Part shown: piece by piece, positions 7,331 through 55,509 of the stretch
How positions within the stretch are numbered: position 1 is the stretch's first letter
How the letters are laid out: each line of letters starts with the position of its first letter
Assembly: GCA_002999035.1 (NCBI GenBank)
Contig: CP027241.1
Span: 2,556,195-2,620,194, forward strand
Reading direction: 5' to 3'
From: Lachnospiraceae bacterium oral taxon 500
GTDB lineage: Bacteria; Bacillota; Clostridia; Lachnospirales; Vallitaleaceae
Length of the DNA stretch: 64,000 nt
Notes under the pieces: model-generated
Told to the model about the DNA's origin: nothing
Seen by the model: only the letters and a program-made list of their open reading frames with translations
Database searches by the model: none
Translations under genes and position numbers: made by a program

Positions 7331-8806
7331 TCACTGCGTTACCCGCTGAATGTTTTTGGCAAAGTTCTGATTGCCGGCAATGACCACGGCATAATTGAGG
7401 AATAACACATCATCAAAACCCTGTTCCACCGCATAGGCCGCAGCGTTTGCCTGAAAATGCCGGGGATCGATCACATGAATTTCCTTATAATGATTCATCA
7501 AAAACGGAATAAAGGCATTGCCGTAAGAATCCTTAAACACCAGGATTTTCCGGTCGGTGTCAACATTAGTCGTAATCACCGACAACGGCTCATCACCGCT
7601 TAAAAACACCAAATATTTATTCTTAAAACTCGGCTTGCCGTAGTTTTCATTGATGACATTCCAGTTCAGCACACCGCCCTTGGCCGTGTGAATTTGAAAG
7701 GTCGACTCCACTAACGGCATAAACACTTCAACCGTATCGGGGTTAGCCGCTATCTTGGCGCTTCGGGTCTTATCATACAAAGTGCCTAAAAATCCCGGGA
7801 ACTCCTTTTTTTCATACTTATCCAAGGTAACCGGTGAAAAGCCGGCCGTCTTTACAAAAGCCTCATACGCATAATACGCTCCTCTGGCCGTCCAGTGGTG
7901 ATCCGAGCGAAAATATAAATAATCCTGATAATGCGAAAGCAGTGAGCTTCTGGCATCAACCGGCGTAATCCGCGGACTGAAAAAGCTATTAATCAACTGA
8001 ATTGCTTCTTCCTGTGAGCTGCCCATTTCCCGGTATTTTTTATTAGGAATAAACTCAATATGACTGGGCGCTACCAGCGAAAAGACCCGCATCGATTCCG
8101 GCATTTTAGCGGCAAACTGGTTGATACTTTCCGCGTAAAACTGGCAGGACGCTGACCGGTAACCGAATATTTCATAAGCGGCATCTTTGAGCACCAAAAA
8201 GTTGCTCTTGACTTCGCCGGCCTCATTATCCTGGGTATCCTCAATGACCGTTTCCATATTCGGTGCTGCCTGCTCCGAAGCAGCAGCGGACGGCTTTGTT
8301 TCCTCCGGGTGCCGGGCCAGGTACTCGGCAATTTGCCGCCGGGCATAAAGCTTAACCCGATCGTTCAAATCACTGACGCTGCTGACCAGACCGGCCTGAG
8401 CGGCCATAGTTTCCGTTTCGGTCGTATCTGCGGACTTTTCGTTCTCGGCGGTAGAAGCTTCTTTCGGATCTTTCTCCTGTGCCTTATCCGGATCAGCCGC
8501 AAACTGATCGCCCGTTTTTAAAGTCAAGATCTCCGCTTCATCCTCACCGGCCATGCCCTTTAAGGCCATCAGCTTATCATTCAGACTGATCCAGCTATCC
8601 CGAAACATAAAACGGTCGGCATAAAAGGTTTCAATCCCGCTGAAAAAATCACCGTTTTTTAGAGCTTCCGTTGAAAATTCCGGGAACTTAGCCAGTGTCC
8701 TGTTCTCCGCCGCCGAAACCTCCGCTTTGTTATATAAAAACAAGTTCATAACGCCCATCGCCAAAAGACCTAATACAAATAATACAACATTTAATTTTTT
8801 AATCAT
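7331..8806 (-). CDS. DHHW-motif (AlgX/AlgJ-like) SGNH-type surface-polymer acetylation protein
   Basis: 491 residues from ATG 8806 (MIKKLNVV..., with AAGGA upstream); the frame extends 51 codons further but overlaps the MBOAT gene out of register. Residues 5-25 form a membrane anchor, then SAAENRTLAKFPEFS, the standard opening of DHHW proteins. Residues 100-200 are an acidic, low-complexity insertion (many E, T, A). The name-giving motif is DHHW at 302-305, and VFKDSYGNAFIPFL near the C-terminus supplies the likely nucleophile Ser. By analogy with AlgJ/AlgX it is an extracytoplasmic partner of an MBOAT acyltransferase, encoded just upstream (8836-10221), for O-acetylation of a cell-surface glycan. 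The glycan is not identifiable. Confidence 0.85.
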   Translation of the reverse strand: MIKKLNVVLFVLGLLAMGVMNLFLYNKAEVSAAENRTLAKFPEFSTEALKNGDFFSGIETFYADRFMFRDSWISLNDKLMALKGMAGEDEAEILTLKTGDQFAADPDKAQEKDPKEASTAENEKSADTTETETMAAQAGLVSSVSDLNDRVKLYARRQIAEYLARHPEETKPSAAASEQAAPNMETVIEDTQDNEAGEVKSNFLVLKDAAYEIFGYRSASCQFYAESINQFAAKMPESMRVFSLVAPSHIEFIPNKKYREMGSSQEEAIQLINSFFSPRITPVDARSSLLSHYQDYLYFRSDHHWTARGAYYAYEAFVKTAGFSPVTLDKYEKKEFPGFLGTLYDKTRSAKIAANPDTVEVFMPLVESTFQIHTAKGGVLNWNVINENYGKPSFKNKYLVFLSGDEPLSVITTNVDTDRKILVFKDSYGNAFIPFLMNHYKEIHVIDPRHFQANAAAYAVEQGFDDVLFLNYAVVIAGNQNFAKNIQRVTQ

Positions 8807-8835
8807 TTTCTTTTTTCCTTCTTTATTACTGCTGA

Positions 8836-44724: not shown

Positions 44725-45123
44725 ATGAACATTATTTGTATTTCACCGCTGAAAAAACTGGACAGCCCCTATGCTGAGGCAGTTAGGGAATATGAAAAAA
44801 GGTTGGGCCGCTACTGCAAGATCAAACTTTTTTCGACCAAATCCGCTCCGCCGTGGTCACCGGCGGCCGAGATTCTGACCATTACCAGCGGCCTTGCCGG
44901 CGCACCGATGCTCTCGTCCGAAGAGTTTGCCGCCCGGCTTGCACAGTATGGGCTTAACGGCCAAACGCGGCTTCATTTTATCTTAGCGGATGGCCCGGCC
45001 GTTTCAGAAAACTGTCTTTCCCTCAGCCACGCCCAGCTATCGCAGCCGCTTTTAACCGTGCTTTTATATGAACAAATTTACCGAGCTTTCCGCATCATTC
45101 ACCGGCACAGCTATCATAAATAA
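44725..45123 (+). CDS. Shortened, divergent RlmH-like methyltransferase
   Basis: 132 residues from ATG 44725 (GAGGTGCTT upstream); normal RlmH has about 159. The N-terminal MNIICISPLKKLDSPYAEAVREYEKRLGRY and the C-terminal LLYEQIYRAFRIIHRHSYHK follow the family, which methylates pseudouridine 1915 of 23S rRNA. But the SAM-binding loop, normally a GGxxG-type sequence, reads FILADGPAVS, and a central stretch is about 25 residues shorter. Activity is doubtful; it may be a paralogue or a decaying copy. Followed closely by the permease gene with which it is likely co-transcribed. Confidence 0.68.
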   Translation: MNIICISPLKKLDSPYAEAVREYEKRLGRYCKIKLFSTKSAPPWSPAAEILTITSGLAGAPMLSSEEFAARLAQYGLNGQTRLHFILADGPAVSENCLSLSHAQLSQPLLTVLLYEQIYRAFRIIHRHSYHK

Positions 45124-50938: not shown

Positions 50939-52336
50939 TTATTTTCTGTATTTTAACGGCAAAGTAATCGTAAACACCGAACCTTGGCCAATCTCGCTGC
51001 GGCACTGAATATTGCCCTGATGCAGCAAAACCGCCTGCCTGGCAATCGCAAGCCCCAAACCGGTACCGCCGGTTTCCCTCGACCTGGCCTTATCGACCCG
51101 GTAAAAGCGATCAAAAATATGATATATTTCTTCCTCGGTAATCCCTATCCCCGTATCTATAATTTCAACGGTAAAGTTTTTCAAATCGCTGTCTAATTTG
51201 GCATGAATCACACCGTTTTCCTGATTGTATTTAATCGCATTTTCCACCAAATTACTGAACGCTAAAGTAATCTGAATCTCATCCAGTTCCGCCTGAATCT
51301 CCCGGCTACTTTCAAAAAACATCTGAATTCCCTTTTTATCAGCCAGCGGCTTTAAGCGTTTCATCACCGTTTCCAGCAGTTCATTCACTGAAATTTCCTT
51401 AATGTTAAGGGCAGTTGATTGATTGCCCATTTTTGACAGAGTCAGCAAATCATTGATAATCCGGTTTTCCCGCTCCACCTCATTACTGATATCCTGCAAA
51501 AACTCCTGATACAGCTCTTCTTCGATATTGCTTTGCCCCAGCAACGAATCGCTCAACACCTTGATCGAACTCAGCGGCGTTTTCAGTTCATGGCTGACAT
51601 TGGCCACAAACTGCTTATGATTTTCCTCAATATCCTTTAAATTGCGAATCATATGATTCGCCGCGCTAATGATTTCATCAACCTCCTTGGCCCGCTCATC
51701 ACCCTTGATCTCATCAAAATTACCGTCCTTAATCCGGTTCAGTTGCCTGGTCAGCTCAGTAAACGGCTTAGTAATAAAACCGGACAACCAAAAGCTTGCC
51801 ATCAAAATCAAAAAAATCACCGAAACAATCACGCCCAAACCGGCATATATCATCATCCGCAGTGTTGCCATCACCTCACGGTTAGAAGCCATCACCACCA
51901 CTACACCCTGAATCACATCGCTGTCAATACCCTTAGCCGGCAAGACCACCATCCGCACTTCCCTTTGCTTGGCATAGGCATAGGACAGCTTTCCGTTCAA
52001 AGCCTGAATCACCTCCGGCACCGCATAAAGCTTTCCCCGATCAATATCCTCAGTATCATAAATCACACTGGCCTGACGGTTCAAAATTAAAACCCGATGA
52101 CTCACTTCCGCAAAAACCGACAATTTCTCCAGTTCATAATAATAACGGTTAAAAAAGTTCTGCGCCGCCAACTCACCCGCAATCATGTTGGACTCCATCG
52201 CCATCTTCCGCTCCAGTTCCCGATTATAATTATTATAAACCAAAAAAGCCATGATAAAAGTAACCGTCAAGATTCCGATCACGCCGATTGATACAAAAGC
52301 AATATTCAATTGATTCTGTATACTTCTCTTCTTCAT
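50939..52336 (-). CDS. Sensor histidine kinase (PhoR/WalK-like)
   Basis: 465 residues from ATG 52336 with GGGAGAAGC upstream; an earlier in-frame start lacks a site. TM1 about 11-35, extracytoplasmic sensor 40-160, TM2 163-187, HAMP 188-240, then the H-box FVANVSHELKTPLSS with phospho-acceptor His249, N-box VENAIKYNQENG, D/F-box DTGIGITEEEIYHIFDRFYR and G-box GGTGLGLAI. Its cognate regulator lies at 53883-54581 but is separated by the ORF6N gene. GerMN protein follows and may be a target or partner. Confidence 0.95.
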   Translation of the reverse strand: MKKRSIQNQLNIAFVSIGVIGILTVTFIMAFLVYNNYNRELERKMAMESNMIAGELAAQNFFNRYYYELEKLSVFAEVSHRVLILNRQASVIYDTEDIDRGKLYAVPEVIQALNGKLSYAYAKQREVRMVVLPAKGIDSDVIQGVVVVMASNREVMATLRMMIYAGLGVIVSVIFLILMASFWLSGFITKPFTELTRQLNRIKDGNFDEIKGDERAKEVDEIISAANHMIRNLKDIEENHKQFVANVSHELKTPLSSIKVLSDSLLGQSNIEEELYQEFLQDISNEVERENRIINDLLTLSKMGNQSTALNIKEISVNELLETVMKRLKPLADKKGIQMFFESSREIQAELDEIQITLAFSNLVENAIKYNQENGVIHAKLDSDLKNFTVEIIDTGIGITEEEIYHIFDRFYRVDKARSRETGGTGLGLAIARQAVLLHQGNIQCRSEIGQGSVFTITLPLKYRK

Positions 52337-52449
52337 GCTTCTCCCATTACCCAATCCCGTGGTTTTCAAAACAAAATATTCCGCTATCTATTCCTCTTAA
52401 CACCCACTGAGCGTAGGCTTTAAACAAATCTATATTCGAGTTTTTCCAT

Positions 52450-52632
52450 TCCTCTCATCTCTACGCCATCCCAAAACCATCCCCTACCGCAACATAAACT
52501 CATAACATCCCTTTATCAAAGAAACATTTTCCCCTTCTTCTCATTTCTCACCCAGCCGGAGCGCAATATTTTGACACGCTGTTCAACTGTTCGAAATTTG
52601 AACAAGTGTCAAAATATTGCGCGACCGGGTTT
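52450..52632. repeat. Direct repeat copy 1 with a 17-bp hairpin
   Basis: About 183 bp, about 85 % identical by eye to 53704-53884. Its right half is a perfect 17-bp inverted repeat GCGCAATATTTTGACAC (52561-52577) with 52606-52622. The rest (52337-52449) of the 301-bp gap upstream of the sensor gene holds nothing recognisable. Confidence 0.8.
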
Positions 52633-52637
52633 TAATT

Positions 52638-53696
52638 CTATTTTAACCTCAACACCGAATTTTTCAAAAGCCTGTTTATGAGATCCGTATAGATAATTTG
52701 GTCAACTACTTCCGATACCGTTGTGACTCTTTCCCCGGCATCCTTAGACGACGCTCCGCAATGATATATCCGCTGATTCCCTGTATTCCAGTCGATAATA
52801 ATATACCTGTCATGAAACTCCCCGCCGGATTTCTGAAACTTAATCTTTCTCTGCGGATACTCCCGGCAAAAATCTTGATATTCAAGCGCATGAAGTCCCT
52901 TGCCAATGTTGTCACTGAAAATAATGATTTCTACCGATGATGATATATCCTTTAACAATACCAAGGTCTTAACCCCAATGTAGTTATCGACAATATAAAT
53001 ACTCTTTTGCGCTGTATCATAAATCTCTTTATAAACAAGATTTGCTTCCATCAACTGTCCGTTTAAAAGCAAAAATCCTCTTTTTACCTGCGGATTACTA
53101 AAGTCAAGAATCACTTCCGATAAGTCAGACTTTTGAACAACATTCCCTAAAGTGTCAATCACCTCTGCCACCTTATCTTCCACATTCATCAAATCTCGCC
53201 TTAAGTCCTGTATTTCAGCAACATTACTTGTTATCTGCATTGACAGCTGCAAAAACTCCCTTTGCCCAATCAAACCTTGATTTTCTACAATGTAGTCTTT
53301 CATTTGCTTGAATGTACGAATCAGTGCCTTACTCTGCTTGACTGCAAGTTCACCTTTAAGAACCGTCATCAGCATATAGATCCCGGCTTCAGTGAAAACA
53401 AAAGGCATGTATCTTCTACCGCCGGAACCCAGTTCTGATTTTGAGGTCAAATTTTTTGACCTCAAAAATTCCCATTCATCTTTTGTGAGTTGGAACCTGA
53501 AATCGTCGTCAAATTTCTCAATATTATTCTTAACTTGCTGATTAAAAACCTTCGTTTCATATCCATAAATCTCTGCAAGCTCAAAGTCCAGCATGACCTT
53601 CTGTCCCCTGACTACATAAATCTTTTTCGCAAGAAATTCTTGATTTACAAGCATTACCTCATCTTTTTTATCAATTTCGTCTGCCAAACCCTTCAC
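52638..53696 (-). CDS. ORF6N DNA-binding domain fused to a PLD-like C-terminal domain
   Basis: 352 residues; start GTG 53696 chosen because AGGAG is 6 nt upstream (TTG at 53702 overlaps that site). ORF6N region about 18-110: IYVVRGQKVMLDFELAEIYGYETKVFNQQVKNN, then FRFQLTKDEW and MPFVFTEAGIYML. This DNA-binding fold comes from phage antirepressors. Residues 215-345 look like a phospholipase D-like module (SIYIVDNYIGVKTLVLL, then EFHDRYIIIDW, then IYHCGASSKDAGERV), His and Asp at a position like an HKD motif. Role unknown. It interrupts the kinase/regulator pair, is AT-richer than them and is framed by direct repeats. Confidence 0.82.
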   Translation of the reverse strand: MKGLADEIDKKDEVMLVNQEFLAKKIYVVRGQKVMLDFELAEIYGYETKVFNQQVKNNIEKFDDDFRFQLTKDEWEFLRSKNLTSKSELGSGGRRYMPFVFTEAGIYMLMTVLKGELAVKQSKALIRTFKQMKDYIVENQGLIGQREFLQLSMQITSNVAEIQDLRRDLMNVEDKVAEVIDTLGNVVQKSDLSEVILDFSNPQVKRGFLLLNGQLMEANLVYKEIYDTAQKSIYIVDNYIGVKTLVLLKDISSSVEIIIFSDNIGKGLHALEYQDFCREYPQRKIKFQKSGGEFHDRYIIIDWNTGNQRIYHCGASSKDAGERVTTVSEVVDQIIYTDLINRLLKNSVLRLK

Positions 53697-53703
53697 CCCC
53701 AAC

Positions 53704-53884
53704 TCCTCTCATCTCTACGCCACCCCAAAACCATCCCCCGCCGCAACATAAATTCATAACATCCCTTTATCAGAGGAGCTTTTCCCCATCTTCTCTTTTT
53801 TCCCCAGCCGGAGTGCAATATTTTGACACGCAATTCAACTGTCCGAAATTTGAACAAGTGTCAAACTATTTCGCGACCGGGTTT
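53704..53884. repeat. Direct repeat copy 2
   Basis: About 181 bp, matches 52450-52632. The stop of the response-regulator gene lies in its last two bases and the ribosome site of the ORF6N gene (AGGAG) lies at its first bases. The hairpin arms here are less perfect (TGCAATATTTTGACAC). Confidence 0.8.
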
Positions 53885-54581
53885 AAAGCAGCGAAAAGTA
53901 ATACCCTATCCCCCACTTCGTCATAATATACTCCGGCTCTCCCGGCGTCCGCTCAATCTTCTCTCGCAAACGGCGAATATGAACATCCACCGTCCGCACA
54001 TCGCCCGGATAATCATAGCCCCAAACAATACTCAACAAATTCTCACGACTGTAAACCTTATTCGGATTCCGCATCAGATGCTCCAGCAAGTCAAACTCCT
54101 TAACCGTTAAAACAATCTCCCGCCCGTCCATAAAAACCTGCCGACTCTCCGGCCGCAAGGACAAAAGACCAGCCGCAAGCGTCATATCCTCCTGCTCCCG
54201 CCGCTGTGCCGCCGCTGCTTCGTTCCGGCGCAAAATCGCCTTCATTCGCGCCTTCACCTCCAAAATATTAAAAGGCTTGGTAATATAATCATCCGCACCA
54301 TACTCCAAACCCAAAATCTTATCCATATCATCGCCCTTGGCGGTCAACATCATTACCGGCGTCATGCTCCTCTCCCTAATCTGACGCAGCACCTCCATAC
54401 CATCCTTGCCCGGCAGCATCACATCCAAAATAATCAAATCATAACCATTTTTTCCCGCCTGCTCCAAAGCCATTTCGCCATCAAAAGCCGTATCCACCAA
54501 GTAGCCGTCCTGCTCCAGGCTAAACTTCAAACCCTTGACAATCAGCTTCTCATCATCCACCACTAAAATCCTTTTCGCCAC
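53883..54581 (-). CDS. OmpR/PhoB-family response regulator
   Basis: 232 residues. The receiver has DD acid pocket (VVDDE), phospho-acceptor Asp53 in LIILDVMLPGKDG, Thr in MLTAKGDD and Lys in YITKPF. The winged-helix C-terminus shows LTVKEFDLLEHLMRNPNKVYSRENLLSIVWGYDYPGDVRTVDVHIRRLREKI. It is highly similar in architecture to PhoP/WalR regulators. Upstream is comEA (18-bp gap); downstream lies the repeat, then the ORF6N gene, then the kinase. Confidence 0.96.
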   Translation of the reverse strand: MAKRILVVDDEKLIVKGLKFSLEQDGYLVDTAFDGEMALEQAGKNGYDLIILDVMLPGKDGMEVLRQIRERSMTPVMMLTAKGDDMDKILGLEYGADDYITKPFNILEVKARMKAILRRNEAAAAQRREQEDMTLAAGLLSLRPESRQVFMDGREIVLTVKEFDLLEHLMRNPNKVYSRENLLSIVWGYDYPGDVRTVDVHIRRLREKIERTPGEPEYIMTKWGIGYYFSLL

Positions 54582-55232: not shown

Positions 55233-55321
55233 CGATTAAAATTTGATGAGAAACGTAAATAAATTTTGAACAAGTATCAAGATATCATACACACAAATTC
55301 TAAACCTTTACCTAAGCCAGA

Positions 55322-55402
55322 GCGTGTTCTTTCTGCACGCAGCTCAACTGTCCGAAGCGTCCGCAGGACGCAAGTTTTGAACAAGTGCTGAAAGAACACG
55401 CG
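55322..55402. repeat. Hairpin related to the direct repeats at 52.5 and 53.8 kb
   Basis: GCGTGTTCTTTC (55322-55333) pairs with GAAAGAACACGC (55391-55402). The core CTCAACTGTCCGAA and TTGAACAAGTG is the same as inside the repeats at 52450 and 53704. Confidence 0.65.
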
Positions 55403-55409
55403 ACTAGCA

Positions 55410-55509
55410 CTCAACTTCCCCATAATCGAAGTGCTGTGCACTTCTGCCTGACGGGTTGTCTGTCTAAAAAAGACCGTTCTATTTTTGCAAAACATGGGAA
55501 AGTTGAGTT
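55410..55509. repeat. MITE-like repeat, 100 bp
   Basis: Ends ACTCAACTTCCCC (55410-55422) and GGGAAAGTTGAGTT (55496-55509), with one module CGAAGTGCTGTGCACTTCTGCC and the block CTAAAAAAGACCGTTCT. With the hairpin at 55322 it fills the 353-bp gap upstream of the flippase gene. Confidence 0.65.

Follow-up and report, generated by a model that had tools for sequence, protein, structure and literature searches.

We analyzed a 64,000-nucleotide stretch (the window) of the 3.2-Mb, single-contig genome of Lachnospiraceae bacterium oral taxon 500 (G000), in which a gene for a protein with an ORF6N domain and a PLD-like C-terminus lies between the two genes of a two-component system, framed by two direct copies of a 186-bp repeat. 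On the minus strand, the order is a ComEA-like gene, an OmpR-type response regulator (53883..54581; Response_reg and Trans_reg_C), the ORF6N gene (52638..53702), and a sensor histidine kinase (50939..52336; HAMP, HisKA, and HATPase_c, with HAMP slightly under the Pfam cutoff). Here and below, gene names outside the set scanned with Pfam were read from translations. Both two-component genes are intact according to Pfam, in agreement with a first-pass annotation made from the sequence alone.

That annotation had assumed that regulator and kinase normally adjoin, and we found this to be the case. The kinase was present in all 22 family genomes examined (locus L030 of a metagenome-assembled genome and a contig of congener G002 share length and coordinates and were counted once), and the gap between the two genes measured -11 to 34 nt in 20 of the 21 genomes other than G000 (34 nt in G002) and 271 nt in the last one, congener G001. 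None of the 21, G001 included, has the ORF6N gene in this gap. The kinase orthologues of the two congeners are 82% and 78% identical to the window gene, and the regulator orthologues, which are 79% identical, adjoin the kinase in both. Since regulator and kinase adjoin in 21 other family genomes, the ORF6N gene is an insertion between them. The longer gap of G001 (L044:6010-6284) contains a different structured repeat, a large, multi-hairpin sequence of ∼200 nt. This repeat matches at least 59 places in G001 (the best 40 among 151 candidates were scored); G002 has 10 such places and G000 has one (at 801785). Unrelated repeats have thus entered the regulator-kinase gap in two species of the genus. 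A member of this G001 repeat family also occurs on contig C105 of that genome (7303-7411), ∼430 nt behind the 3' end of an ORF6N-PLD gene (7844-8827).

We then examined the two repeat copies, both read on the minus strand. Copy 1 (52450..52635; covariance model match of 96.6 bits) stands behind the ORF6N stop and consists of a hairpin (52554-52629) and a tail of ∼100 nt, while copy 2 (53704..53887; 85.0 bits) consists of a hairpin (53806-53881) and a tail, overlaps the regulator stop (53883), and ends in GAGAGGA; both copies are among the eight sequences from which the model was built. They are in direct orientation, with 89.8% identity over 186 aligned columns, and their self-match scores 243 bits, whereas 50 Markov-shuffled versions of these 6 kb never exceeded 33.7, a result that bears out the direct repeat of approximately 180 bp, with a hairpin on each side of the gene, proposed at first pass. 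The copies stand 1 base before the listed ORF6N start and 2 bases after its stop, and the folding energy of the hairpin is -45.5 kcal/mol in the kinase-side copy and -28.0 kcal/mol in the regulator-side copy. A genome-wide search of G000 found the ∼100-bp tail only in the window pair, and G000 contains a single repeat-ORF6N-repeat block. Rfam gave nothing above the gathering score between window positions 45000 and 60000, the only match being to a microRNA (27.8 bits against a gathering score of 60).

Copy 2 was also said to supply the ribosome site of the inserted gene. By eye, we placed this site at GAGAGGAG, at the end of copy 2, and the likely start is an in-frame GTG, the third codon, behind it. 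In a second copy of the gene in G000, 77% identical, the ATG start aligns by eye with an isoleucine codon of the window gene, so that the latter appears to use a start supplied with its new upstream sequence. The U-run of an intrinsic terminator is missing after both window hairpins, where by eye the following bases are G/A-rich; a terminator scan listed no site at these hairpins, although it allowed loops of 3 to 8 only and might overlook them. Because no T-run follows the hairpins in the direction of the genes, the operon probably remains readable through them. The 113 nt between repeat copy 1 and the kinase (52337-52449) gave no convincing match among the other loci compared; they open with an ATG after the GAGAGGA of the repeat, which begins a 9-codon reading frame and may be a remnant.

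The inserted gene and its relatives

The ORF6N domain covers residues 26 to 114 of the 354-aa protein (Pfam E value, 3.8e-33), and the gene has a GC content of 38.6%, against 46.5% for the window. PLD-fold nucleases carry a motif of the form H-x-K/R-x4-D followed by G-x-S. The C-terminal part of the protein contains HDRYIIID at residues 297 to 304, and its HDR-x4-D and GAS-KD motifs are invariant in all eight aligned homologues. This part has no match to a PLD family in Pfam. The predicted structure is poor, with a mean predicted local distance difference test (pLDDT) score of 44.2 (residues ∼221 to 347 are better, mostly at 50 to 78), and Foldseek matches of this low-confidence model to proteins with a PLD fold are weak: TrmBL2 (E value, 6.2e-4; root mean square deviation, 12.8), Zucchini (1.1e-3), and NucT (7.2e-3). 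A phmmer search of the PDB returned no match, and NCBIfam returned a single partial match, far under its cutoff. In the designation ORF6N-PLD given at first pass, the first half is backed by Pfam and the second by the motif and the weak fold matches.

In PHROGs, the N-terminal ORF6N part matches seven anti-repressor families and one regulator family, and a match to Phage_pRha falls under its Pfam cutoff. Nearly the whole protein (residues 12 to 347) matches positions 5 to 302 of the 306-position PADLOC profile PDC-S05 (E value, 4.9e-109), a candidate single-gene defense system whose protective role is predicted (PMC12988326). Judged by title, none of the papers found for ORF6N deals with this protein. 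Relative to the second copy in G000, the window gene has 0.14 nonsynonymous (dN) and 1.59 synonymous (dS) substitutions per site, so that the divergence is mostly synonymous; the gene seems to be kept by selection, probably as a predicted defense or regulatory protein with DNA-binding, nuclease-like character.

Several relatives of the gene are found on mobile elements, as well as in the candidate-defense profile family above, in line with the defense or regulatory module suggested at first pass. The second copy in G000 (within L045:7191-10054) lies after serine recombinase genes and before AbiEii and an AbiEi-like gene that scores slightly under its Pfam cutoff. A copy in G001 is split in two by an inserted sequence (L047:5582-7668) and is found ∼4 kb downstream of a serine recombinase, from which methyltransferase-like genes separate it. 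A relative of 47 to 49% identity in an IMG/VR contig is placed between a MobA/MobL relaxase and genes read as replication genes, and a serine recombinase follows farther along this contig. On a Bacteroides plasmid record of 15.9 kb, a tyrosine recombinase precedes a 61% relative by two genes, and a Treponema plasmid carries a 41% relative within a type I restriction locus. Two cases weigh against this kinship, namely, the G001 copy on contig 105, whose listed neighborhood contains ribosomal-protein genes, other genes of the chromosome, and no recombinase that we recognized, and a copy on a Butyrivibrio plasmid with no recombinase annotated nearby. The phage collection yielded five matching records, all unannotated and covering at most 71% of the protein, and 6 of the 69 matching records in the plasmid collection cover at least 80% of it. 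From these relatives, we consider the window gene to be probably mobile cargo and a defense candidate. The stretch L045:7191-10054 may itself be a defense-bearing integrative element. Around the second copy (L045 6700-8800), repeats of at least 24 nt, whether direct or inverted, were not found.

A family of intergenic hairpins

We built a covariance model from eight hairpin copies and searched G000 with it (best 150 of 368 candidates scored). The 16 resulting rows comprise nine full-length hairpins scoring at least 74 bits, eight of which are the model's own sequences, three antisense matches to them, and four partial or degenerate matches; applied to the window and six other loci, the model returned 22 rows, which are the same nine hairpins, nine antisense matches, and four partial ones. 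The nine hairpins occupy seven gaps: addA-ClC, ClC-hslO, O-antigen-ligase-like gene to sugar transferase, fmt-rsmB, flippase-ComEA, regulator-ORF6N, and ORF6N-kinase. All lie between co-directional genes and in the orientation of these genes; several are local duplicates, so that nine copies are not nine independent events. In six of the seven gaps, the first hairpin or broken half-hairpin starts 0 to 30 nt behind the stop codon. The exception is the flippase gap, where 111 nt, including another palindrome, separate the stop from the hairpin.

The hairpins measure 76 nt, except for a long type of 94 nt, and their loop and base are conserved while the stem changes. In eight of the nine copies, 14 of 28 stem pairs were changed on both sides, a value reached in none of 500 shuffles, and 93.7% of cells were paired, against at most 41.4% for slid structures; one of five measures, the number of further pair types, was not unusual (142/500 shuffles). 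The base of the hairpin is an inverted repeat, outside which the tail lies. We found no tail common to all hairpins among the 12 tails compared. Of six tail pairs with a z score above 4, three were dropped, B2-B1end and B3-B4end because they overlap the same bases and A2-B1end because of a common hairpin start; B2-B3 is possibly inflated by a hairpin remnant, and A3-A4, beside ClC (z score, 8.5 against 300 mononucleotide shuffles), and c1-c2 stand. Since tails are alike only between neighboring hairpins, local duplication of units also seems to happen. With its hairpin and tail present twice, the window pair agrees with this pattern.

Outside G000, a search under strict filters found the hairpin in none of the 391 other genomes taken from the order (the best 10 candidates per genome were scored, so that weak copies could escape), and it was found in neither congener. 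The first-pass annotation had called for relatives with a single repeat copy and no inserted gene; the gene is indeed missing from the gap in all 21 genomes, but the two congeners gave no hairpin match. It had also held that repeats in many unrelated gaps without cargo would count against its reading, and this is partly what we see, with the hairpin in five other gaps, beside genes for which no evidence of being cargo was seen, and resident neighbors at the two sites compared.

The first of these two sites is the ClC gene (L026:8000-10560), which has hairpin arrays on both sides. In the ClC-hslO gap, a 143-nt unit made up of a 94-nt hairpin and a tail of ∼48 nt interrupts the 3' arm of another hairpin, and the joined flanks of this unit refold to an outer hairpin with the shape of the family (-36.4 kcal/mol, compared to -14.1 kcal/mol for the left part alone). 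That a hairpin-plus-tail unit lies inside another hairpin indicates that units insert by themselves. With dispersed copies (nine in seven gaps) and evidence of insertion in the nested unit, the family is comparable to miniature inverted-repeat transposable elements (MITEs). On the other side, the hairpin before ClC is cut short where the next one begins, and its missing arm was not found. We ruled out ClC as cargo, as it adjoins hslO in both congeners and lies between addA and hslO in G002 (in G001, only 159 nt of contig precede ClC, so that addA is not in view). A gene flanked by hairpins need not be cargo, since ClC keeps its place in relatives without a hairpin match. The ClC protein of G002 has a C-terminal TrkA_C domain that is absent in G000, where the hairpin array begins at the ClC stop codon.

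The second site is in the window, where a third hairpin (55315..55408, minus strand) of the long type, with an inner GCGTCC-TGC-GGACGC stem, lies between the flippase-like and ComEA-like genes; it matches the model at 84.3 bits and is itself a model sequence. These two genes are neighbors without a hairpin in G002. Directly beside this hairpin is a separate palindrome of ∼98 nt (CTCAACTTTCCCAT ... ATGGGGAAGTTGAG; 55410-55507), and downstream of the hairpin is a fragment resembling half a hairpin core (TTTGAACAAGTATCAAGATATC; 55262-55293). A gene with a folded repeat looks like an integron cassette, but we rejected this reading as a general rule, as the hairpins stand beside ancestral neighbors at ClC and flippase-ComEA; no search aimed at an integrase was made.

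How the arrangement may have arisen

We propose an explanation to which, taken as a whole, we would give an even chance. A lineage-specific, nonautonomous hairpin element, similar to MITEs or to repetitive extragenic palindromic (REP) sequences, would insert or be copied immediately behind stop codons, between co-directional genes and in the direction of transcription. One hairpin unit would have entered the regulator-kinase gap, and an ORF6N-PLD gene of serine-recombinase mobile-element kinship would have become lodged at this junction. The hairpin-tail unit would then have been doubled by a second insertion, a local duplication, or recombination, so as to leave one unit after the regulator and one after the ORF6N gene, the repeat tail supplying the ribosome site of the latter.

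Several points weigh against this proposal. The mobile unit may be something other than the 186-bp sequence, because the ∼100-bp tail of the latter is specific to the window pair and longer than the ∼48-nt tail of the nested unit. The two copies differ by 10%, which does not suggest a recent event, and the order of the steps is not readable from them. As the hairpins were chosen as hairpins and are related, their covariation is evidence that pairing is maintained but does not tell the reason. By eye, we noticed no target-site duplication at the sites inspected, and no transposase was tied to the hairpins, Y1_Tnp being the only family searched. This search gave two partial matches, at 3004k and 672k, one with a stop and neither beside a hairpin. 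An RAYT as the mover was rejected on these fragments; a lost or foreign enzyme is possible.

The close framing of the gene by direct copies with a tail of their own would also fit a composite mobile unit, in which the two 186-bp copies bracket the ORF6N gene and move with it as one block, like TIME-COMP or mobile insertion cassettes; according to PMC4133298, two direct copies of a miniature element around genes not devoted to transposition are known as mobile. We regard this as unlikely, given that the genome has only one such block, that its second ORF6N copy has no surrounding repeats, that the neighbors at other hairpin sites are ancestral, and that no target-site duplication was seen. The first-pass view that the cargo moved with the repeat is thus tenable in part: a joint move is possible for the window pair, whose tail is unique, but is not the repeat's general behavior, and the notion that the two generally travel together is not supported, given the repeat-free second copy and the five other gaps.

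Single-crossover (Campbell-type) integration, in which the gap already held one hairpin-tail copy and a circle with the ORF6N gene and another such copy recombined with it, would yield exactly the order regulator-repeat-gene-repeat-kinase. It is rather improbable, however, as we found no donor with hairpin-tail and ORF6N (the exact hairpin-core pattern occurs in no viral contig, and the repeat is not matched in the plasmid collection), and as the downstream repeat stands only 2 bases past the ORF6N stop, which implies a circle with little besides gene and repeat. We are equally doubtful of a tandem duplication of the hairpin-tail unit in the gap with later entry of the ORF6N gene between the units: the related tails of neighboring hairpins beside ClC (A3-A4) suggest that local duplication occurs, but an entry point that falls precisely on the border between units would have to be put down to chance, unless that border is a target. 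Finally, we give very little probability to a reading of the hairpin-tail units as a system for gene capture that has no known recombinase: an enzyme would recognize single-stranded hairpins, these would be set behind stop codons, always in one orientation, and two of them together would bring in or hold cargo such as ORF6N-PLD in a housekeeping operon, functionally like integron cassettes with a different folded site.

Whatever its history, the locus is a clean case of a defense-candidate gene inside a conserved two-component operon that it does not break. It also brings to light a hairpin family of few members, seen in only one of the species sampled, in which base and loop are fixed and the two sides of the stem change together. 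If, as in our proposal, the hairpins do move and come to stand behind stop codons in a constant orientation, they would offer a compact system for the study of repeat spread and operon tolerance.

Likeness to known systems

The inserted gene resembles PDC-S05 in its near full-length profile match and in that related genes occur on mobile elements and, in one case, within a type I restriction locus. It differs in being solitary, between a regulator and a kinase and not in a defense locus. With phage anti-repressors and pRha-type regulators that carry ORF6N, the protein shares its N-terminal part; unlike them, it has a PLD-like C-terminus, and phage matches do not extend beyond 71% coverage.

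As described in PMC2817692 and PMC3733652, REP sequences, bacterial interspersed mosaic elements (BIMEs), and bacterial MITEs are, like our hairpins, short intergenic palindromes, noncoding, partly clustered, and limited to a species, with stems kept by complementary changes; in G000, the genes on either side are co-directional in every case. These families have more than 100 copies, whereas the G000 family has about a dozen. The G000 hairpins also differ in having one orientation only and in their length of 76 to 94 nt with conserved loop and base and a changing stem. REP sequences specifically are set apart by an unpaired GTAG or CGTC tag at one end, which the G000 hairpins lack (by eye, their ends are GGCCAGTCGC / GCTCTGGCG or CCCGGTCGC / GCTCCGGC), and the Y1_Tnp search found no intact RAYT-type gene in G000. 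In TIME-COMP2, as at our locus, two direct copies of a small noncoding element frame genes not devoted to transposition; by comparison with TIME-COMP as presented in PMC4133298, we saw neither Tn3-type inverted ends nor 5-bp target duplications in the window pair, and the block has no second location. The closest known kinds are thus REP and MITE repeats for the hairpins and TIME-COMP for the arrangement of two copies around genes.

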